11,756 bases of DNA, taken from contig JABIBH010000020.1 of assembly GCA_018652925.1 (NCBI GenBank), positions 1-11,756 on the forward strand. Direction: 5' to 3'. Positions 1,845 to 10,700 of this stretch are shown piece after piece. Position numbers and translations under genes: made by a program. This DNA is from a bacterium (lineage in GTDB: Bacteria; Krumholzibacteriota; Krumholzibacteriia; LZORAL124-64-63). Positions within the stretch are counted from its first letter, which is position 1. Each line of letters starts with the position of its first letter. The notes below the pieces were generated by a model. It ran no database searches. It saw only the letters and a list, made by a program, of their open reading frames with translations, and had not been told where the DNA came from.

Positions 1845-3005
1845 ATGAATCATGGACCGAGATGGCAAATAGCTGTGATAGGGATACTTTCAGGTGTTTT
1901 ACTGGTCGCTTCTTTTATGATTGGCGTACTGTATAACAAAGAAACGGTTGTCGTTGAGCGGGTTGTTACTTCTGTTGAAGAAGAACGACAGAGTGCAATT
2001 ATTTCAGCAACAAAAGCTGTGGCACCGGCAGTTGTGAGTATAAATGTCATTGATCACAGGACAGTTGTTCGGTCCTCTGCGCCGCGTGGAATGGAATATT
2101 GGGAGCGTTTCTTTCCCGGTATGTTCCCACGCAGGGAGTTTCAGCAAGATATTCAGAGCATGGGCTCAGGTGTAATAGTATCCACCGATGGTTATGTAAT
2201 TACCAATGTTCATGTTATTGAAGTTGCAGATGAAATAATGGTCACTTTGAACGATGGTCGTCAGTTTGAGGCAACTCTGTTGGAGCAAGTCAAGGGTTGG
2301 GACCTAGCTTTACTGAAAATAGAAGCTGACAATCTTCCAGTTGCTAAATTTGCCAACAGTGATAGTAAGCTCCAGATAGGGCAGTGGGCTATTGCTATCG
2401 GTTCACCATTTGGATATCTACTTGCCGACACTCAACCTACAGTCACTGTTGGAGTGATCAGCGCCCTTAACCGTGATATTAAGCAGCAGCAAAATGGTCA
2501 GACTTTTCTGGGTATGATTCAGACCGATGCATCAATCAACCCGGGTAATAGTGGTGGACCCTTGATTAACAGTGACGGTGAAATCATCGGTATAAATACT
2601 TTCATATTTACTGAGAGTGGTGGCAGTATTGGACTCGGGTTTGCAGTACCAGTATCCAGAGCAAAATGGATTGTTGATGAAGTTAGGCAGTTTGGCAGAT
2701 ATAGACAGGCCTGGACTGGAGTTATGATGCAACTTCTGTCACCCAAATTGATTACAGCTTTGGAGCTTGATGAGGATATTGCCGGGTATATTGTCCGTGA
2801 AATTGAATCTGGATCACCAGCTGAAAAAGCAGGTCTTCAGGTTTACGATGTTATCACCGCAATAGATGGTGTCCCTTTGACTGATAAGGACACCGTTGAC
2901 AGGTTGGTTTATGAGGCAAAAGTAGGCAGAGAATTGCGCTACGAAGCGGTCAGAAAAGATAAAATAATAACCGGTAAAATAGTTCTGGAAGAATATCCCA
3001 GGTAA
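1845..3005 (+). CDS. htrA: Membrane-anchored HtrA-family serine protease with one PDZ domain (DegS-like layout)
   Basis: This 386-aa protein has one hydrophobic N-terminal segment (about residues 8-30), probably an uncleaved anchor that places the rest in the periplasm. A trypsin-like domain follows at about 55-280 with the full triad: His123 in ITNVHVI, Asp153 in DLALLKI and Ser236 in NPGNSGGPL. One PDZ domain (about 290-380) contains AGYIVREIESGSPAEKAGLQ. One anchor, one protease domain and one PDZ domain match the DegS layout; DegP and DegQ have two PDZ domains. A 30-residue Arg/Phe/Pro-rich loop before the catalytic His (76-106) corresponds to the LA loop. The ribosome binding site AAGGA (1833-1837) lies 7 nt before the ATG, and the gene starts 4 nt after tal. 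HtrA proteases cleave misfolded envelope proteins, and DegS cleaves an anti-sigma factor. The target here is unknown. Confidence 0.92.
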   Translation: MNHGPRWQIAVIGILSGVLLVASFMIGVLYNKETVVVERVVTSVEEERQSAIISATKAVAPAVVSINVIDHRTVVRSSAPRGMEYWERFFPGMFPRREFQQDIQSMGSGVIVSTDGYVITNVHVIEVADEIMVTLNDGRQFEATLLEQVKGWDLALLKIEADNLPVAKFANSDSKLQIGQWAIAIGSPFGYLLADTQPTVTVGVISALNRDIKQQQNGQTFLGMIQTDASINPGNSGGPLINSDGEIIGINTFIFTESGGSIGLGFAVPVSRAKWIVDEVRQFGRYRQAWTGVMMQLLSPKLITALELDEDIAGYIVREIESGSPAEKAGLQVYDVITAIDGVPLTDKDTVDRLVYEAKVGRELRYEAVRKDKIITGKIVLEEYPR

Positions 3006-3818
3006 CTATTTGAACAGTACTTTAGTTGCTCCCCAGCTACTGTCCTGATTTTCCTGCACTGCACTGTTTGAAATAGAAATAAGCTCGTCCGCAAGCACCA
3101 TGCCCAAGGCCTGATTACAGGCCAGGTTCGGGTGTGAGTCATATGCATTGTGGAATTTCTCGTAATCATATCTCAACATGTTGCTTGCTGGTGATCCATC
3201 ATCAGGGTGTGCCAGGAAATCAAACATGTCAAAATAGTGCACATTTGTTATACCGCCCAGAAGCTCTCTGCTTCCCATCCAGGATGCAAACTCGCGAGCT
3301 CTGTCAGCCTCATTACTTGAAGTTCCAAGGCGATGTTTTGGTGGTGGTGACATCAACAAAAACGTTTTGTCTGCGTGAGTCTCCAACACATCTACAATAT
3401 CGTAGTACCATTCTTTGAATTGCTGTAATTGAGTATTGCTGGTGATGTCAGATGCTGAATAGCAGGATTTGAAAACAATAACATTGTGATTGTCCAGAAT
3501 GGCATCTTTTGCAGAGTTTGAAGTAGTCCAGAGATAGTGCAATCCAGCAGGGTCTGTGTCATCATTGGGAATATTATAGCTCCCGACAATTTCTCCAGAA
3601 GGATCTGTTAAGCCGATATGATTATAGTCGTGATCCCAGAATTCAAGATTTGTATCATTGAGTGAGTTGGAATACTCGATATGAGCACGAACTGATCCAT
3701 AATCGATCACATATCTACCAACAGAGTTATGAAGGAAGAATATATTCTCGCCCGCAATAGAAAACATCGGGATAGTTATTATTGCTAACAAAACAATGAA
3801 TGGTATTAATTTTCTCAT
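3006..3818 (-). CDS. Exported SGNH/GDSL-hydrolase-like protein
   Basis: This 270-aa protein has a clear signal peptide (MRKLIPFIVLLAIITIPMFS, cleavage near residue 22), so it is exported. The mature protein opens with NIFFLHNSVGRYVID, where Ser32 sits at the place of the SGNH-fold nucleophile directly after the first beta strand. A second strand, NVIVFKSCYSASDI (112-125), resembles the following SGNH block. The C-terminal DSHPN (227-231) matches block V (Asp-x-His), giving Asp227 and His229. FLLMSPPP (153-160) is a typical core strand. The substrate cannot be read; ester-linked carbohydrate or lipid groups are usual for the superfamily. The ATG at 3816-3818 is preceded by GAGGAG (complement of 3830-3835), 11 nt away. 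The stop codon directly abuts the convergent htrA stop. The fold assignment is moderate; the precise family was not recognised. Confidence 0.6.
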   Translation of the reverse strand: MRKLIPFIVLLAIITIPMFSIAGENIFFLHNSVGRYVIDYGSVRAHIEYSNSLNDTNLEFWDHDYNHIGLTDPSGEIVGSYNIPNDDTDPAGLHYLWTTSNSAKDAILDNHNVIVFKSCYSASDITSNTQLQQFKEWYYDIVDVLETHADKTFLLMSPPPKHRLGTSSNEADRAREFASWMGSRELLGGITNVHYFDMFDFLAHPDDGSPASNMLRYDYEKFHNAYDSHPNLACNQALGMVLADELISISNSAVQENQDSSWGATKVLFK

Positions 3819-3903: not shown

Positions 3904-6363
3904 CTATTGAGCTCCGCCAACTAAAACAAAACTAGCCCAAATACTTGGGGAATTATAAGGCCTGCGACCCGACTCAGTTCGGAAATTACGCAGGTCTTGT
4001 TTTGCTAACATCAGACACTCAGCAGGGGCGAAGGTATTTGCTTCAGACATTCTCTTATAAAATGAAACCATCAGTTGCTGTGTCGCCTTATCATTAACTT
4101 TCCATAGACTAGTTATGAGATTATCCGCACCTGCAATGAGGAAGGCATTTGTCAAGCCAAGAAAACCATCGCTTTGAGTTGCCATCCCTAAGCCTGTTTC
4201 ACATGCACTTAAAACTACTAAGTCAGCATCAATGTCCCAGCCCATTCTGATTTCTCTGGCCGACATCAGACCGTCATCGCATGAGAATTGTTTGCTACTA
4301 AAGCTCTCAGGTAAATCTAATTGCGACAAAACAAGTGCTGACCTGTCAGGGGAATAATTATTCACAAGGGCATGTGTTGCTAAGTGAATAACTCGCCACT
4401 TTTCCAAGCTGTGATTGTCTGAAAGTGTTGCTAGATTGGCTTCTGAAGCAGATCGGCCAAGCATTAATTCACTGTTTTCAAACAGCTTTGCTATTTGTAG
4501 TGCTTCAGTTCTGGAGTTGAACAATCTAGGTAGTTGTCCTAACGCGTTTTTATCTCCAGATAAGGCACTTCTAAAAATAGCATTAACAGGAATGATGTCG
4601 CTTGCAGATGCAATACTGAATTCTTCTTCTTGATTTTCATTATATGGAGGATCCGCAACAATTAAAAGACCATCGCGAAGAGGCTCTCTGTTTTCTTTAC
4701 TACCTTGAGCAATTAGAGTAGCCGATGGGGTAGTAATAATACACATTTTATCAACTAGAAACTGATCGTCAGAAATTGCGATTGCATCAAGAGGAACGCC
4801 TGCCATTGTGTTTGAGCAGACTGCATATAGCCTAGTTACATTTTGAAGCAAATCTTCTGCAGGAGCAAATCTATTAGCCCAGATATTTTGAGAATTAGAT
4901 TCCCAAGTTTGAGCAAATGGAAGTGGTGAGTGAGTGCTTTTAATAAATTGTTCTATTGTTTTTCTGTCGTTGTTTTTGTCTGTAAGTTGTCGCCACTGAA
5001 TTTCACCCTCAGATTTAATTACATAAACATACCTAGAGTATTTTTCGGCAATAAGTGGAGCATCGAGCCATCCGATAACTGCATCACCAGGTTCTAAGTT
5101 GTTTTGTACAGAGGCAATATCCACAGAACTATCTAACATCAATTTACCGATTGTATGGTTCAGCAGGTCTGTTAGTTCTGAGTTATGTTCTGTCCAACTG
5201 GCGAATATTTCTCCACTAGAATCACCCAAAGACATTTTGTTTTCAAGTAGGAGCAGTTTTTTTCGAAGAGTTGTAATAGAGAGTCTGGTCTCAGAATCGA
5301 GTTCAGATTCAAGTTTGTGAAGCTGTAAAACCTGTCCTCGCATATGTTCCAAAGTCTGCCAAGCTTCAACAGGCTTATTGTCTGTAAGTAATGCATTAGC
5401 AAGAATTGTGTGGGGCGGATCAAGGAATGTTGCTTTTACACTTTCTCTACCAGTTGAAAGCCAAGCAAGATTATAACAGCTAACTGCGTTGCGTAAGAGC
5501 TCTATCGATTCAGAAATGTTGCCTTCAGAAAGTTCAATTTGGCCAAGACCACTGTAAGTACGCATCGCTTCAATTTGTGAAATAGAGCCTGACTGGTCAC
5601 AGGTTTTAATTATTTCATGAGCTTGATTGTAAGCTTGTTTTGCGCCTGCAATCTGGTTGCAACTAACTCTAATTGCTCCGATGCTATTATTTGGTGCAAG
5701 CAACAACGGATGAGTCTCATTATAGAGTGAAGATATAATTAATCGAGCTTGCCGATGCATTATTTCTGCAATCCAATCATTTTCTATCTCTAAATACAAA
5801 TTTCCAAGGCATTGTACAGTCGATGCATTTTGTGGATGAATATTGCCGTAAATTTTTCTGATACCTGCAAGGGCCTCAATATATTTGTCTCTAGCTTCTT
5901 TAGGATTACCTAATTCCCATGCAATTGATGCAGACAAAGAATGCAGGCGAACAAGTTGAGGATGGCCATCATAAAGTAGGTTTAATCTAACTTGATATAT
6001 GCTCTGTAAAAGCTCTTTAGCTTCAAGCAGATTGCCTTCTTCAAGGAGAGTTGCAACCAATCCTTCTTTGGCAATCGATGTTTCTATTGTAGCTATTCCA
6101 CAAGATTTTTCATAGACCAAAACAGCTTGCCTGAAATAACTTTCTGCTTTTGCAAAGTCACCTAACTCATAGGCACTACTTCCAATATTGAAAAGTAATT
6201 CACCATGTTCTTTTGAGTTTGGAACTGAATTTTGAAGTTCAGATTTGAAGCCATCAATAGCTGAAAGATAAGAACCTTCATGGAAATCATTAGGCGCATT
6301 AGAAAAACATGGCAGGGAGGCCATGAGTATAATTAGTGAAAGGGAGATGGCGGGGCGATTCAC
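3904..6363 (-). CDS. Exported TPR-CHAT protein (caspase-like cysteine peptidase)
   Basis: This 819-aa protein has a signal peptide (hydrophobic residues 6-19, cleavage likely after SNA23), so it should act outside the cytoplasm. Residues about 30-340 are a run of TPR-like helical repeats, for example FNIGSSAYELGDFAKAESYF (58-77). A charged helical linker (340-410) leads to the C-terminal CHAT peptidase domain (about 420-819). The caspase-like dyad is complete: His664 in IHLATHA and Cys721 in VVLSACETGLG. The domain ends with the usual SPSIWASFVLVGG. The start is GTG at 6361-6363, supported by GGAGT (complement of 6369-6373) 5 nt upstream; no ATG near it would keep the signal peptide. The gene follows the ECF sigma gene by 19 nt in the same direction. 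CHAT domains include true proteases (separase-like, Csx29). The substrate is unknown; the divergent membrane anti-sigma is an obvious candidate. Confidence 0.9.
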   Translation of the reverse strand: MNRPAISLSLIILMASLPCFSNAPNDFHEGSYLSAIDGFKSELQNSVPNSKEHGELLFNIGSSAYELGDFAKAESYFRQAVLVYEKSCGIATIETSIAKEGLVATLLEEGNLLEAKELLQSIYQVRLNLLYDGHPQLVRLHSLSASIAWELGNPKEARDKYIEALAGIRKIYGNIHPQNASTVQCLGNLYLEIENDWIAEIMHRQARLIISSLYNETHPLLLAPNNSIGAIRVSCNQIAGAKQAYNQAHEIIKTCDQSGSISQIEAMRTYSGLGQIELSEGNISESIELLRNAVSCYNLAWLSTGRESVKATFLDPPHTILANALLTDNKPVEAWQTLEHMRGQVLQLHKLESELDSETRLSITTLRKKLLLLENKMSLGDSSGEIFASWTEHNSELTDLLNHTIGKLMLDSSVDIASVQNNLEPGDAVIGWLDAPLIAEKYSRYVYVIKSEGEIQWRQLTDKNNDRKTIEQFIKSTHSPLPFAQTWESNSQNIWANRFAPAEDLLQNVTRLYAVCSNTMAGVPLDAIAISDDQFLVDKMCIITTPSATLIAQGSKENREPLRDGLLIVADPPYNENQEEEFSIASASDIIPVNAIFRSALSGDKNALGQLPRLFNSRTEALQIAKLFENSELMLGRSASEANLATLSDNHSLEKWRVIHLATHALVNNYSPDRSALVLSQLDLPESFSSKQFSCDDGLMSAREIRMGWDIDADLVVLSACETGLGMATQSDGFLGLTNAFLIAGADNLITSLWKVNDKATQQLMVSFYKRMSEANTFAPAECLMLAKQDLRNFRTESGRRPYNSPSIWASFVLVGGAQ

Positions 6364-6382
6364 TATTTACTCCAAAAGGTTG

Positions 6383-6949
6383 TTACTCATTACTGGAGTG
6401 TATATTATCGCACATTTTGAGGTGAGAATGCAAGACTTTTAAACATTTATGTAGTTGAACTCTAAGTGTAGATATATTTGCATTATTAGCACCTGCAATC
6501 TCGCTATAGGTTTTTTCATCAAGAAATCTTTCATGAATTAGCTTTTTGCATAATGGTCTCAATTTCTCGATAGCATTGTACAGCTTTTTTAATCGTTCAA
6601 TACAGATAACTTTTTCTTCAGGAGATTGACCTGCACAAGGAATAGATTCAGGTAACTCTTGAAAGTACCTTTTTTGCCGAAAGTAATCTACACATCTTGC
6701 AAGAGTGATGCGGACAACTAGGGAGTGAGCAGTCTGTTGAAGTTGGAAATCTGGTTTTGAAACATACTGCCAGAGATTTGTGAGGGAGAGCTGAACAATA
6801 TCATGAATGTCATCTGGTTGAAGATCTGGAATCTTGAAAAAGATAGCTTTTCGTACCCAGAGAGCTATTTGGTCACAAGCATCCTTTTCACCGGAGCGAA
6901 ATCGTTCCAGCAATGCAATATCATTATTTCTTGTAACCTTGTTTGTCAT
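6383..6949 (-). CDS. ECF-type RNA polymerase sigma factor
   Basis: This 188-aa sigma factor has the two-domain ECF layout. Region 2 covers about residues 10-97, with DDIHDIVQLSLTNLWQYV (46-63) in the -10 recognition helix area and ARCVDYFRQKRYF (84-96). A short linker (98-117) leads to region 4 (about 118-175), whose helix-turn-helix contains EKTYSEIAGANNANISTLRVQ (145-165). It has no extra C-terminal sensor domain. The ATG at 6947-6949 has GGAGG (complement of 6961-6965) 11 nt upstream. It is the first gene of a two-gene operon with the TPR-CHAT gene and is divergent from a ZAS-type membrane protein 121 bp away. That context makes a sigma/anti-sigma pair likely. The subgroup and target promoters cannot be read from the sequence. 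Confidence 0.9.
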   Translation of the reverse strand: MTNKVTRNNDIALLERFRSGEKDACDQIALWVRKAIFFKIPDLQPDDIHDIVQLSLTNLWQYVSKPDFQLQQTAHSLVVRITLARCVDYFRQKRYFQELPESIPCAGQSPEEKVICIERLKKLYNAIEKLRPLCKKLIHERFLDEKTYSEIAGANNANISTLRVQLHKCLKVLHSHLKMCDNIHSSNE

Positions 6950-6971
6950 ATAAACTTATCCCTCCACAATT

Positions 6972-6977
6972 ATTATA
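6972..6977 (-). promoter_or_regulatory. Candidate -10 element for the ECF sigma-CHAT operon
   Basis: The complement reads TATAAT, a perfect -10 hexamer preceded by TG. The expected -35 zone (about 6994-7001) is only T-rich (TTTATT), a poor match. Transcription would start near 6965, giving a leader of about 16 nt beginning at the ribosome binding site. The rest of the 121-bp divergent region (6950-7070) is purine-rich on the plus strand. I see no convincing promoter for the plus-strand gene, nor a repeated motif for ECF autoregulation. Confidence 0.28.
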
Positions 6978-7070
6978 CAGGTAAAACCCCAAAAAATAAA
7001 AGGAAAAAATTGCATAAAATATTGAACAAAATGGAATTTGCTACGACTGTATATAAGAAGGAGGAAAGTT

Positions 7071-7835
7071 ATGGATCAAAGAGAAGCAATAATTTTGCTG
7101 ACAGACTACATCAAAGGCACACTTTCAGATGATCAGAAGGTAGCCGTTGAAAAACATATTGAAACTAATCCTGAATGTCAGGAGACAGTTAGGTTTTTAC
7201 GCGACCTCGATAAAGACCTAGCTCAACACTCTGAATTATTTGCGTCTGGCCACCCCAATGCAGATGATATCGTTGCATATGCATTAGATGGTACAGACTC
7301 ATCTGGTGAGGTTGCTGAACATATTTCAGGCTGTCTATTCTGCTTTGAGGAAACTCAAAAAGTTAGGTCAGTTTACAATGAATTAGTTGTAGGGAAACCG
7401 AAAAAGAAAAATGTTATCTTGTATCTTGCTGCAGCTATAATGGTTGTCGTTTTGACAATTGTGTTCCTGCCGCAGGGTGAGCAATGGTCAGGATCTGCTC
7501 CAGTGATTCATGTTAGAGGTGTAATGCGCTCGGTTGAAATGCCGGAAGTAGTTGTTGAAAGAGATATAAAACAGTTGCCGATGGTCATACAATGGAACCC
7601 GTGGACAGACAGAGCTGATGACGATGATTATAATTTAATGATATCAATCATCGAGGATAAAAAGATGCTTCTTGAAATGCCGACAACCGCAAATGCGCTG
7701 TGGGATAGTACCAATAAAATTAGTTCGGTTGTTATTGCAACAAGTGCAGTTGGTTTTGGAATAAAAACAGTTCAAGTTACTGATGACTCTGGATCAATCT
7801 TGTTTAGTGGTCAATTTCTCCTGACCCCTCAATAA
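7071..7835 (+). CDS. Single-pass membrane anti-sigma factor (ZAS/zf-HC2-like)
   Basis: This 254-aa protein starts at the ATG at 7071, chosen because AAGGAGG (7058-7064) lies 6 nt upstream; an in-frame ATG at 7038 lies upstream of that site. Residues 1-55 form a helical unit (DYIKGTLSDDQKVAVEKHIE) like the anti-sigma helical bundle, but with only His29 and Cys36. A second copy (about 61-105) has the canonical zinc triad H-x3-C-x2-C: His84, Cys88, Cys91. A Lys-rich stretch (109-113) precedes the single membrane segment (about 114-134), so the N-terminus should be cytoplasmic. The C-terminal 120 residues should be periplasmic and contain MVIQWNPWT and YNLMISII, suggesting a beta-sandwich domain. 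Such proteins hold their ECF sigma at the membrane. The divergent ECF gene is the likely partner. Its 3' end overlaps the next gene, tail to tail, by 32 nt. Confidence 0.75.
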   Translation: MDQREAIILLTDYIKGTLSDDQKVAVEKHIETNPECQETVRFLRDLDKDLAQHSELFASGHPNADDIVAYALDGTDSSGEVAEHISGCLFCFEETQKVRSVYNELVVGKPKKKNVILYLAAAIMVVVLTIVFLPQGEQWSGSAPVIHVRGVMRSVEMPEVVVERDIKQLPMVIQWNPWTDRADDDDYNLMISIIEDKKMLLEMPTTANALWDSTNKISSVVIATSAVGFGIKTVQVTDDSGSILFSGQFLLTPQ

Positions 7836-9492
7836 GAACCCAGATTTTGTTTGCAGGCATATCATGCCAAACTTCATTCAGTCCGGATGGCCATTCCACT
7901 CGGACTGATTCTATTTTAGTTTTCTCAGCAATTCCAAAATGAGTTATAAATGGTGGCTTTTCAACTAATCTAATCATTGATAAGTCTCTGTCTTTAACAA
8001 TTATTCTGGCACCAATAGCAGATCTGTTAGATTTTGTTCCTCGCAAATCAAACATGATGGCATTGCCTGTTTTACTGTCATTTCTATAAATTAATAATTT
8101 GCTAGATTCTACAGTGACTTTATCCGAATATCCAAGTTCCTGCGGTATTATTATGTCTAAATCCATATCTCCATCAATATCAATAAGGATGTTTTTTGAT
8201 GAGTTGCAGGGTAATCTTGGCTCAAGGCAGTCGAAGCTTGTAGAAAACCTGTTATCTCCAAGGTTTCTAAAAAGCTGAAATTTTGTAGGTGTACTATATG
8301 ACCCATGCAGAAATGGTAGCAGGTCAATGTAGCTGTCGTTGTCTAGGTCACCAGTAGTAAAGCCTGCGCACACTTTATATCCAAACCAGAGCCCAGCTTC
8401 TTTGCCGATATTCTTAAAAGTTCCATTGTCGTTTAAATACAGTGGAGTCCTAGAACCATGTGCATCTGTCATTGAGGTGATTGCATCAAAATCTAGGTCA
8501 TTGTCAATATCAAGCTGAACAATTTGGACAAATTTTGGATCATCTGGATAAGCTGAAAGTTCAGCTTTGGAGAATTTGCCGTTGTCGTTAATCAGTTGAT
8601 AAGTTTTTGTTCTGACACCAAAGAATGATGGGTTGTTGTGAAATAACAGATCAGGGAATTTGTCGTTATTGATATCAAAAATAGAAATTATACCACTACG
8701 ATCAATTTCTTGTTTGTGAAATGGTAGTTCCAAAAAGTTGTTTTGGACATAATCATTTCCATCATAAATCCAGGTTAAAAGTTCACTTTTAGGCTCATTA
8801 TATTTTAAAGAAACAAAATCCAAAAAACCATCACAGTTGATATCTGAAAGGGTCATACTAGAGGGAGGGGTGTAACCGTAATAATCTGTAAAGCTGGTTT
8901 GTTTGTTGGAAAAAGTCCCGTCACCATTATTAATAAAACAGTCAATTTTATATGACCAAGGTTGGATTTTAAATTCATTTATTCTTGGTCGCTTCATTTT
9001 GCTGTCAATATATGCACTGCTGTTATAGGTAGGTGCACCTACAACAATAAGATCAGTGAAGTTATCATTATTAATATCACCACAAACAAAGCTAGAAATG
9101 TAATCTGGAAGCCCTGAATTTTGCGAAATAGTAAAATGTCCAGTTCCGTCATTTAGTAACAAAGTGGATGGAATTGGGTATCTGGTTGTTGATCCAAGTA
9201 GTAAATCAATGTCGCCATCATTGTCAATATCAAGTGCCGCAGAGCTCCGGGTGTCTCCTAGGATAGGTTTTTCAGTTGCATCGGATAATAAATTGAACTG
9301 CAAATGCTCAGTTGATCCGTATATCCCACCAGTGCCGTCAGATATAGTGTCTGAGGCTATCTCATTGAATAGCCCTAAGTTATGCTTGTTGCGAATTGAG
9401 TTTTGGGCGTAACTAGTGGTGGATATACTAACCAGGAGAAAAGCTGTTAGTAGGCATCCTGAAATTATTTCAATCTTTTTCAAAAAAAACAT
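7804..9492 (-). CDS. Exported FG-GAP repeat protein with C-terminal ASPIC/UnbV domain (CRTAC1-like)
   Basis: This 562-aa protein has an N-terminal signal peptide (KK at 5-6, hydrophobic 9-24, cleavage likely after SYA29). It then has at least seven FG-GAP/VCBS-type blades with calcium-binding D-x-[DN]-x-D-x-x-x-D loops at about residues 88, 139, 217, 273, 328, 382 and 438, for example DIDNDGDIDLLLG and DLDNDSYIDLL. These form a beta propeller. Residues about 490-556 match the ASPIC/UnbV domain: AIGARIIVK, HFGIAEKTKIESVRVEWPSG and a final hydrophobic strand. No catalytic residues are visible; such proteins are usually extracellular binding proteins. The ATG at 9490-9492 has AGGAAG (complement of 9506-9511) 13 nt away, a rather long spacing. 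The 3' end overlaps the anti-sigma gene, so it is a separate transcription unit. Ligand unknown. Confidence 0.88.
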   Translation of the reverse strand: MFFLKKIEIISGCLLTAFLLVSISTTSYAQNSIRNKHNLGLFNEIASDTISDGTGGIYGSTEHLQFNLLSDATEKPILGDTRSSAALDIDNDGDIDLLLGSTTRYPIPSTLLLNDGTGHFTISQNSGLPDYISSFVCGDINNDNFTDLIVVGAPTYNSSAYIDSKMKRPRINEFKIQPWSYKIDCFINNGDGTFSNKQTSFTDYYGYTPPSSMTLSDINCDGFLDFVSLKYNEPKSELLTWIYDGNDYVQNNFLELPFHKQEIDRSGIISIFDINNDKFPDLLFHNNPSFFGVRTKTYQLINDNGKFSKAELSAYPDDPKFVQIVQLDIDNDLDFDAITSMTDAHGSRTPLYLNDNGTFKNIGKEAGLWFGYKVCAGFTTGDLDNDSYIDLLPFLHGSYSTPTKFQLFRNLGDNRFSTSFDCLEPRLPCNSSKNILIDIDGDMDLDIIIPQELGYSDKVTVESSKLLIYRNDSKTGNAIMFDLRGTKSNRSAIGARIIVKDRDLSMIRLVEKPPFITHFGIAEKTKIESVRVEWPSGLNEVWHDMPANKIWVLIEGSGEIDH

Positions 9493-9794: not shown

Positions 9795-10700
9795 ATGGAT
9801 AACTCCAAGCAAGTTGTGTCTGTGAATGGAATCCAGAATCGGATTTTTACTATTCGAGGTGTGCAGGTGGTGATTGATAGGGATTTGGCTGAATTGTATC
9901 ATGTTGAAAATAAGAGGCTAAACGAACAGGTAAGAAGAAATATCGAAAGATTTCCTATAGGTTTTAGGTTTCAACTTGATGAGATTGAGAAAAACGAACT
10001 GGTCGCAATTTGCGACCGGTTCAAATCGCTTAAACATTCTGTTGTTAATCCGTATGTCTTCACTGAACAAGGTGTGTCAATGTTATCAGCAGTATTGCGA
10101 AGTAAAATAGCAATTGCAGTCAGTATAGAAATCATGAATGCCTTTGTTGAAATGCGTCATTTTATTCAGAGTAATGAACAGCTATTTACCAGAATGGACT
10201 CAATGGAATGCAGGCAGATTGCTTTTGAATGCGAAACAGGAACTAATTTTGAGAAAATATTTCAGGCACTTGAGCATCGGGAGGAGTTACCAAAGCAGGG
10301 GATATTTTATGACGGCCAAGTTTATGATGCCTACTCATTCGCAAGCGATCTAATTAGAAGCGCAAAACAATCGCTGATTCTGATTGATAACTATGTTGAT
10401 GATTCGGTTTTAACTCTGCTTTCCAAACGGTTGGAGTCTGCAACTGCCACAATTTATACAAAATCAATTTCAAAACAGCTTGCACTGGATTTGAAAAGAC
10501 ACAATACCCAGTATCCTAATATCCAAGTAAAACAGTTCAAAGATGCACATGATAGGTTCCTGATTATTGACGAAACAGAAATATACCATATTGGTGCATC
10601 GATGAAAGATCTGGGCAAAAAGTGGTTTGCATTTTCTAAGCTTGAAATATTGGTAGTGGATATTTTGAATAAACTTGGTTCTTGCAACATCAAGCTATAA
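9795..10700 (+). CDS. ORF6N domain DNA-binding protein with C-terminal PLD-like domain
   Basis: This 301-aa protein has an N-terminal ORF6N domain (about residues 12-105). Its family blocks are FTIRGVQVVIDRDLAELYHV (18-37), RNIERFPIGFRFQL and NPYVFTEQGVSMLSAVLRS (85-103). ORF6N domains occur in phage, plasmid and accessory proteins (KilA-N/Bro-like) and are thought to bind DNA. A helical linker (105-165) leads to a C-terminal domain with YDAYSFASDLIRSAKQSLIL (178-197) and HDRFLIIDETEIYHIGASMK (252-271). The latter resembles a phospholipase-D HxKx4D motif with Arg in place of Lys (His252, Arg254, Asp259); only one such motif is present. The ATG at 9795 has only weak purine-rich sequence upstream. 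The gene stands alone between a structured intergenic region and gene debris, as a laterally acquired accessory gene would. Function is unproven. Confidence 0.85.
   Translation: MDNSKQVVSVNGIQNRIFTIRGVQVVIDRDLAELYHVENKRLNEQVRRNIERFPIGFRFQLDEIEKNELVAICDRFKSLKHSVVNPYVFTEQGVSMLSAVLRSKIAIAVSIEIMNAFVEMRHFIQSNEQLFTRMDSMECRQIAFECETGTNFEKIFQALEHREELPKQGIFYDGQVYDAYSFASDLIRSAKQSLILIDNYVDDSVLTLLSKRLESATATIYTKSISKQLALDLKRHNTQYPNIQVKQFKDAHDRFLIIDETEIYHIGASMKDLGKKWFAFSKLEILVVDILNKLGSCNIKL
9996..10022. repeat. Near-perfect palindrome inside the ORF6N gene
   Basis: Two 13-nt arms flank one central T with a single mismatch; the core GGTCGCAA-T-TTGCGACC (10001-10017) is perfect. It lies over the codons for ELVAICDRF in the ORF6N domain. 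A related palindrome sits just after the gene at 10710-10735. Confidence 0.7.

Follow-up and report, generated by a model that had tools for sequence, protein, structure and literature searches.

Background

What would bring an extracytoplasmic function (ECF) sigma factor, a membrane anti-sigma factor and a probably exported caspase-type peptidase together in one small gene cluster? The question is raised by a contig of 11,756 nucleotides (JABIBH010000020.1, assembly GCA_018652925.1) from a bacterium of the phylum Krumholzibacteriota. We call this whole contig the window; it is contig C14 of a genome (G000) that is incomplete, with 1.9 Mb in 420 contigs. Between positions 3904 and 7835 it carries a sigma gene and a TPR-CHAT gene and, divergent from them, a gene for a single-pass protein with an anti-sigma motif. 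An original prediction read this as a circuit in which the CHAT domain cleaves the anti-sigma factor and so releases the sigma. We confirm the observation behind this prediction, and consider its interpretation partly supported. That these genes form a conserved module in the window's family is close to certain; that the locus is a sigma-release circuit in which CHAT cuts the anti-sigma is, in our opinion, an even bet.

Results

The three genes lie as predicted, the sigma and TPR-CHAT genes forming one operon (same strand, 19 bp gap). The first gene of this operon (6383-6949, minus strand) codes for an ECF sigma factor of 188 residues with sigma regions 2 and 4, recognised by TIGR02937 (51.7 bits, cut-off 42.9), with Pfam sigma-70 region 2 and region 4 matches below their cut-offs; it has orthologues in four relatives. 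The second (3904-6363, minus strand, GTG start at 6363) codes for a TPR-CHAT peptidase of 819 residues, in which a TPR array is followed by a caspase-type region with a CHAT domain (PF12770, 174.7 bits, plus matches to TPR repeats) bearing the His/Cys dyad. Its catalytic His664 (codon 4372-4374, minus strand) and Cys721 (codon 4201-4203, minus strand) are present, as had been claimed, and invariant in CHAT alignments of 9 (A4) and 22 sequences (A5).

The divergent gene (7071-7835, plus strand, ATG at 7071) codes for a protein of 254 residues that is of the zinc-binding anti-sigma (ZAS) type, with an HxxxCxxC domain before its one transmembrane segment. The motif spans His84 to Cys91 (7320-7343, plus strand), its His84, Cys88 and Cys91 being where they had been placed and invariant in 5 of 5 orthologues; the membrane segment covers about residues 115-133 by hydropathy (7413-7469, plus strand) and is followed by an extracytoplasmic domain of beta type. 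The cytoplasmic part seems to consist of two anti-sigma-like halves in tandem, the first matched by zf-HC2 (residues 4-32, 23.3 bits, cut-off 22.2) and the second carrying the HxxxCxxC motif. This apparent tandem arrangement was not part of the original prediction, and neither were the fourth conserved gene and the DdvA precedent described below.

How far is this arrangement conserved? CHAT genes were found in 50 of the 58 genomes searched (the window's own included), and the 35 genomes of the window's family gave 118 CHAT matches (summed from the match table). We analysed the best of these, 76 loci in all (73 from 34 relatives and 3 from the window's genome), so that weaker CHAT genes are missing from the sample. 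Sigma genes were sought in six frames with a profile that started from two sigmas encoded next to CHAT and was then iterated over the 76 loci; adding a more general ECF profile left the sigma counts unchanged. An ECF sigma is present in 63 of the 76 loci, the distance from the CHAT gene to the nearest one being at most 300 bp in 50, 1.5 kb in 60 and 5 kb in 63, against a chance expectation of 4.2 at 300 bp and 6.5 at 1.5 kb. This expectation comes from two controls: 20 random regions, with 6 sigmas in 380 kb, and far flanks, with 5 in 425 kb; for one locus (L079) the second match was picked by hand in the comparison of distances. The linkage in relatives, set beforehand as a check on the prediction, is thus clear in this family. 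Eleven of the 13 CHAT genes without a sigma are within 1.5 kb of a contig end, and where at least 1.5 kb is available on both sides (44 genes), a sigma is found within 300 bp in 33 cases and within 1.5 kb in 40. One of the random control regions itself includes a CHAT gene, and a sigma adjoins it.

The linked sigmas are very diverse (mean column identity 27% for the 26 sequences of alignment A1), and gene order is variable: among the 60 loci with a sigma within 1.5 kb, the sigma gene follows the CHAT gene on the same strand in 25, is divergent from it in 18, precedes it on the same strand in 15 and lies on the opposite strand past the CHAT end in 2. The partners are nevertheless matched: over 60 modules, the correlation between sigma identity and CHAT identity is 0.751, whereas partners shuffled within genomes gave 0.181 on average and 0.427 at most in 2000 trials. 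In the reverse direction, a model of the window's sigma subfamily run over 80 genomes of the phylum ranked the five known modules first. The next two matches (G042:C57 and G046:C24) both adjoin CHAT genes and both have a related anti-sigma; of the following three (G018:C86, G010:C13 and G077:C309), at least the first two adjoin CHAT, and the lower matches, only part of which were checked, are mixed. Searches for relatives of the window's sigma and of its anti-sigma returned 2 proteins each, the window's own included.

In four of the relatives (L093, L096, L106 and L115) the full layout of the window recurs, with the divergent anti-sigma gene, the sigma-CHAT operon and, tail-to-tail with the anti-sigma gene, a gene for an FG-GAP/ASPIC-UnbV protein. 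In the window this fourth gene (7804-9492, minus strand) overlaps the anti-sigma gene by 32 bp and codes for 562 residues, probably exported; it is present in 5 of 5 modules.

Beyond these orthologues, the neighbours of 64 sigma-model matches include a protein with HxxxCxxC before a transmembrane segment in 34 cases and another transmembrane protein in 21 (a few of them implausible), with none in 9. We think that the sigma and the anti-sigma are very probably a cognate pair. Among the CHAT-linked anti-sigmas, the balance of basic residues matches an orientation with the N-terminus inside in 43 of 51, and the outer domains vary: Pfam DUF4384 is found in 7 of 46 (A6) and TPR models match a few. 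By eye, the DUF4384 proteins are those resembling L100 and L102, and further outer domains look FN3-like. DUF4384 also occurs in orthocaspases, according to the accessible part of PMC7475262.

Paralogous modules are common, with at least two in 16 genomes among the loci examined. The window's own genome has a second CHAT locus (L012, G000:C242, 8102-10064), where a CHAT gene cut short by the contig edge is accompanied by a lipoprotein-like gene and a gene for an anti-sigma-like protein with two transmembrane segments. In a third (L013, G000:C408, 1-3539) a sigma is divergent from CHAT, and the contig breaks off within a ZAS gene, of which the start is present; L046 of the same genus has this layout too. 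A protein related to the window's anti-sigma (E 2.5e-13) is encoded on another contig of this genome (L015, G000:C161, 3176-3811) and ends at the contig edge. Elsewhere in the class, one genome (G042) has 32 CHAT matches, and a locus of another (L179, 6968-13179, G039) has two CHAT genes in tandem with no sigma found nearby. Apparent sigma-anti-sigma fusions beside CHAT in L060, L061 and L103 were rejected, their N-terminal parts resembling out-of-frame readings of GC-rich DNA, and it is for this reason that sigma and CHAT were then searched in six frames.

Could the peptidase reach the outer side of the membrane? The N-terminus of the window's protein, MNRPAISLSLIILMASLPCFSNA, is a probable signal peptide by a loose rule of our own (about residues 1-23; 6295-6363, minus strand). 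Among linked CHAT genes whose 5' end is complete, 44 of 53 code for proteins that look exported by the same rule, compared with 85 of 193 genes in the neighbourhood. A hydrophobic C-terminal stretch is found in 25 of the 60 linked CHAT proteins, often followed by a basic tail, and the Protein Data Bank (PDB) holds a transmembrane anti-sigma with a CHAT domain (entry 8rot, DdvA, so titled; CHAT match at 835-979). The argument that CHAT and the outer domain of the anti-sigma probably share a compartment therefore holds, with the reservation that the rule is loose.

The AlphaFold2 model of the TPR-CHAT protein (mean pLDDT 87, pTM 0.88) shows a long TPR array. With this model, Foldseek placed Csx29, the protease of Craspase, first, separase at rank 5 and DdvA (8rot_A) at rank 17, E 3.1e-10. 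A broad profile of 33 linked CHAT domains (A8) has DdvA as its best PDB match (E 5.6e-16, residues 835-979 of 991), with separase (1.9e-5) and the TPR-CHAT protein of Craspase (1.2e-4) behind it, and DdvA retains the catalytic His and Cys in this alignment. A narrower profile (A7), built from 16 CHAT domains that are closer to that of the window, matches Craspase TPR-CHAT first, weakly (E 0.0086). When A5 was compared with the PDB, TPR proteins crowded out other matches; DdvA is not among the 50 rows of VIA-align, which has no bearing on the fold.

The dyad is intact in all 60 linked CHAT proteins of the family and in all 7 linked ones of the class. Separase cleaves after a P1 Arg. Asp758 of the window's protein (codon 4090-4092, minus strand) aligns with the Asp of the separase WDVTD motif, presumably the S1 residue that binds this Arg; the position is Asp in 50 of the 60 linked proteins and Gly in 10 of one cluster.

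If CHAT cuts the anti-sigma, where might it cut? Just outside the membrane, the window's anti-sigma has the motif G150-V-M-R153-S154 (7518-7532, plus strand). All 5 orthologues have its Gly150 and Arg153, and it gives the idea of cleavage a concrete candidate site. The motif class [LVIM]R[GSTA], within 36 residues after the membrane segment, is found in 38 of 51 CHAT-linked anti-sigmas (shuffle mean 10.05, maximum 19), against 5 of 46 ZAS transmembrane proteins not linked to CHAT (shuffle mean 7.4). With the looser R[GSTA] the counts are 48 of 51 linked anti-sigmas and 21 of 46 controls, for shuffle means of 34.5 and 24.8. The strict motif stands at 38 of 51 against 5 of 22 when controls are limited to those with at least 60 outer residues, and at 33 of 43 against 3 of 30 after thinning of similar sequences. 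In CHAT clusters 4-6, where a C-terminal transmembrane segment of CHAT is frequent, the Arg is closer to the membrane than elsewhere (medians of 15 and 23 residues; P 0.0013 with kinship ignored). A later look at 14 further loci gave three ZAS transmembrane neighbours, with the strict motif in two (L149 and L191) and only PRS in L148; L148 and L149 had been seen earlier.

The 51 proteins were arrived at as follows: 47 of 55 candidates among transmembrane neighbours were used, L062, L081, L085 and L092 being left out for implausible frames and L088, L107 and L108 as cut by contig ends; the frame of L099 was swapped for a better one, and this, L012, L178 and L190 were added. Three proteins (L148, L149 and L223) were taken out of the controls, having been judged CHAT-linked by their coordinates, and three further zf-HC2 loci had no transmembrane segment that we could find.

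Discussion

The mechanism that we favour would run as follows. The cytoplasmic anti-sigma domains of the single-pass protein would hold the ECF sigma at the membrane, and the TPR-CHAT protein would be exported and act on the far side of that membrane, where a signal would be sensed by the TPR array, possibly together with the FG-GAP protein. The CHAT domain would then cut the anti-sigma close to the membrane on this outer side, the likeliest point being C-terminal to the conserved Arg (Arg153 in the window); a site-2 protease and cytoplasmic proteases would complete its breakdown and free the sigma. Matches to M50 proteases are found in the window's genome. The freed sigma would turn on the anti-sigma gene, as negative feedback, and a set of other genes. 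Bacterial caspase homologues do cleave after Arg or Lys, according to the accessible parts of PMC7475262 and PMC6426788. We think it probable that CHAT acts on the anti-sigma, by cutting or otherwise; for cutting as such we see the chances as balanced, and for cutting at the Arg motif as somewhat below that.

Several of our own observations weigh against this mechanism. The motif was spotted in an alignment first, and its counts are therefore not blind tests; the anti-sigmas are interrelated, so that its P value overstates their independence; many controls have short outer parts, and they were not matched in outer domain. The strict motif is missed in 13 of the 51 proteins; these include two from the window's own group, L093 and L106 (both LRD), and L012 from its genome. 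At the position of the S1-type Asp, CHAT cluster 3 has Gly in 10 of 10 members and yet keeps the motif, and all 44 class-level CHAT rows have Asp there, so that this residue lacks specificity. Unlinked CHAT proteins of the family, too, have an intact dyad in 15 of 16 cases, profile A7 does not find DdvA in the PDB at E up to 1, and the AlphaFold2 model of the anti-sigma is poor (mean pLDDT 65.9). Finally, linkage is weak in the other families of the class: among 44 CHAT rows in 40 loci (the 40 best-scoring among the matches listed, with two genes counted twice through the overlap of L179 and L183), a sigma lies within 1.5 kb in 7 (3.8 expected) and within 300 bp in 4 (2.4 expected).

This last point bears on the first alternative, that the TPR-CHAT protein is an output: the sigma would induce an exported protease directed at other surface or periplasmic proteins, and another protease would remove the anti-sigma. 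ECF operons often include target genes. In 58 of the 60 linked loci the sigma and CHAT genes share a strand or diverge, which is possible for an autoregulated target, and most CHAT rows of the other families have no sigma nearby, which indicates that CHAT proteins can work without one. What does the promoter evidence say? A candidate ECF-type promoter of the anti-sigma gene, TTGAAC-N16-CGAC (7022-7047, plus strand), is exact in 4 of the 5 orthologous intergenic regions, always on the anti-sigma strand; L096 lacks it. Other loci, with their coding DNA, give 7 exact occurrences in 2,037 kb. The window, L093, L106 and L115 have one exact match each, and none before sigma-CHAT. In the window's own genome the pattern is no commoner than its reverse (4 matches against 6), so that its position is what gives it weight. 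The region did no better than shuffles when scanned for sigma-70 promoters, and a TATAAT facing the sigma gene on the other strand (6972-6977) was read by eye, not in the output of that scan; a count of bipartite motifs in other sigma subfamilies gave nothing interpretable. The original prediction had the sigma controlling its own operon; with the only conserved ECF-type promoter found before the anti-sigma gene, the sequence does not suggest this. For the window's subfamily, the position of this candidate promoter speaks for CHAT acting upstream of the sigma rather than being one of its targets. The output explanation also sits badly with a linkage kept across very different sigma subfamilies and gene orders, and it leaves unexplained both the Arg motif of the linked anti-sigmas and the CHAT-bearing anti-sigma DdvA. 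We regard it as unlikely, if quite conceivable.

A second alternative keeps the contact between CHAT and anti-sigma and dispenses with the cut: the TPR-CHAT protein would be a binding partner or sensor, comparable to RseB, and its dyad would serve self-processing or another substrate. The presence of CHAT inside the anti-sigma itself in DdvA would fit this, as would the long TPR array of the window's protein and the TPR and DUF4384 domains of some anti-sigmas, which could be docking parts. A dyad intact in 60 of 60 linked proteins and a conserved linker motif are what one would expect of cleavage instead, and we hold the non-cutting alternative to be rather improbable.

In a third alternative the site-1 protease is the product of a neighbouring gene. 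A DegS-like HtrA (1845-3005, plus strand) has a transmembrane segment, a trypsin domain and a PDZ domain (TIGR02038, 223.7 bits, below its cut-off of 422.95), and stands in a row with genes that by eye look like asd, truA and a transaldolase gene. Its architecture is that of an enzyme which could cut the anti-sigma, with CHAT incidental, and DegS does cut RseA in E. coli (as stated in the accessible part of PMC10028731). We rejected it as a member of the module, no HtrA being found in the four orthologous loci (tblastn, E up to 1e-10), and consider its involvement very unlikely. In the other loci searched there was one match only, in a random control region (L194); this search did not extend to unlinked HtrA genes. 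That the adjacency of sigma and CHAT is chance or a functionless leftover of shared ancestry, as fragmented metagenome assemblies, some unlinked CHAT genes and the weak linkage in other families might suggest, is almost certainly wrong, being contradicted by the linkage counts (50 of 76 within 300 bp against 4.2 expected), by linkage kept across gene orders, by the matching of partners and by the seven best sigma matches of the reverse search, all beside CHAT.

Two further neighbours in the window may be mentioned. The gene at 3006-3818 (minus strand) codes for a protein of 270 residues that has a hydrophobic stretch at its N-terminus and matches no Pfam model above cut-off; by eye it looks like an SGNH-type hydrolase, and we rejected it as a module member, no other SGNH gene being found among the loci searched (tblastn, E up to 1e-10). 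The gene at 9795-10700 (plus strand) codes for an ORF6N-domain protein that matches the PADLOC candidate defence family PDC-S05 (2.6e-120); PADLOC gave no match for the four module proteins.

If cleavage by CHAT is correct, caspase-like proteases would join the enzymes known to cut membrane anti-sigma factors, CHAT proteins outside CRISPR systems would gain a defined substrate and site, and there would be a hint at the possible origin of the Craspase sigma circuit. Genomes with several paralogous copies and matched partners make the predictions of site and specificity open to partner swapping.

Relation to known systems

The closest precedent is DdvS-DdvA of Myxococcus xanthus, an ECF sigma with its cognate anti-sigma (PMC4374960, accessible part). 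As in the window, there is an ECF sigma, an anti-sigma and a CHAT domain with His and Cys; the difference is that anti-sigma and CHAT are one polypeptide in DdvA and separate genes in the window. The joining of both on one chain hints that they act together in the window's module. A frame scan of our loci found no fusion of the DdvA type (no CHAT frame preceded by HxxxCxxC and then a transmembrane segment). DdvS controls an antiphage island, according to the accessible part of PMC12288465, which makes a defence role for the module a fair hypothesis.

Craspase (Csx29, Csx30 and CASP-sigma) likewise combines a TPR-CHAT protease, a sigma inhibitor and an ECF-like sigma (PMC10028731, accessible part). 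The window differs in having a probably exported protease, and a membrane anti-sigma of the ZAS type in place of Csx30. The likeness drawn by the original prediction stands as far as the fold goes, Csx29 being the top structural match; it does not extend to family membership, the Csx29 model (NF041237) giving 24.3 bits for the TPR-CHAT protein (cut-off 300) and the III-E CASP-sigma model (NF041236) 21.5 bits (cut-off 100). No cas match above cut-off was found among the 8 window proteins scanned, the genome not having been searched for Cas7-11. We therefore treat the link to Craspase as an analogy.

RseA/DegS/RseP, the sigma-E system of E. coli, shares with our proposal a single-pass anti-sigma and a cut on the outer side of the membrane; in the window the proposed site-1 protease is caspase-like and encoded beside its target, whereas DegS is an HtrA whose gene is not known to be linked to rseA.

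Two groups of loci found by others should also be compared. ECF54 sigmas have CHAT genes in their context, and proteolytic control was proposed for them (PMC8999054); in the accessible part of that paper they are described as without an anti-sigma factor, and the window has one. The EACC2-caspase loci couple a caspase-type peptidase to an ECF sigma, with a TPR (DUF1822) protein (PMC8195603); their architecture is different, and the accessible part of the paper mentions no membrane anti-sigma. Our literature search, with most subscription papers outside its reach, found no CRISPR-free module of sigma, membrane anti-sigma and separate CHAT.

We judge the window's module to be a split, CRISPR-free variant of the DdvA- and Craspase-like circuits. 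A broader reading is tentative, and we would not yet call it probable: TPR-CHAT proteins may be dedicated site-1 proteases of membrane anti-sigmas, each cutting its own partner after a juxtamembrane Arg, so that the split module, DdvA (with the protease built into the anti-sigma) and Craspase (with the protease under an RNA guide) might be three forms of one caspase-type release of ECF sigmas.

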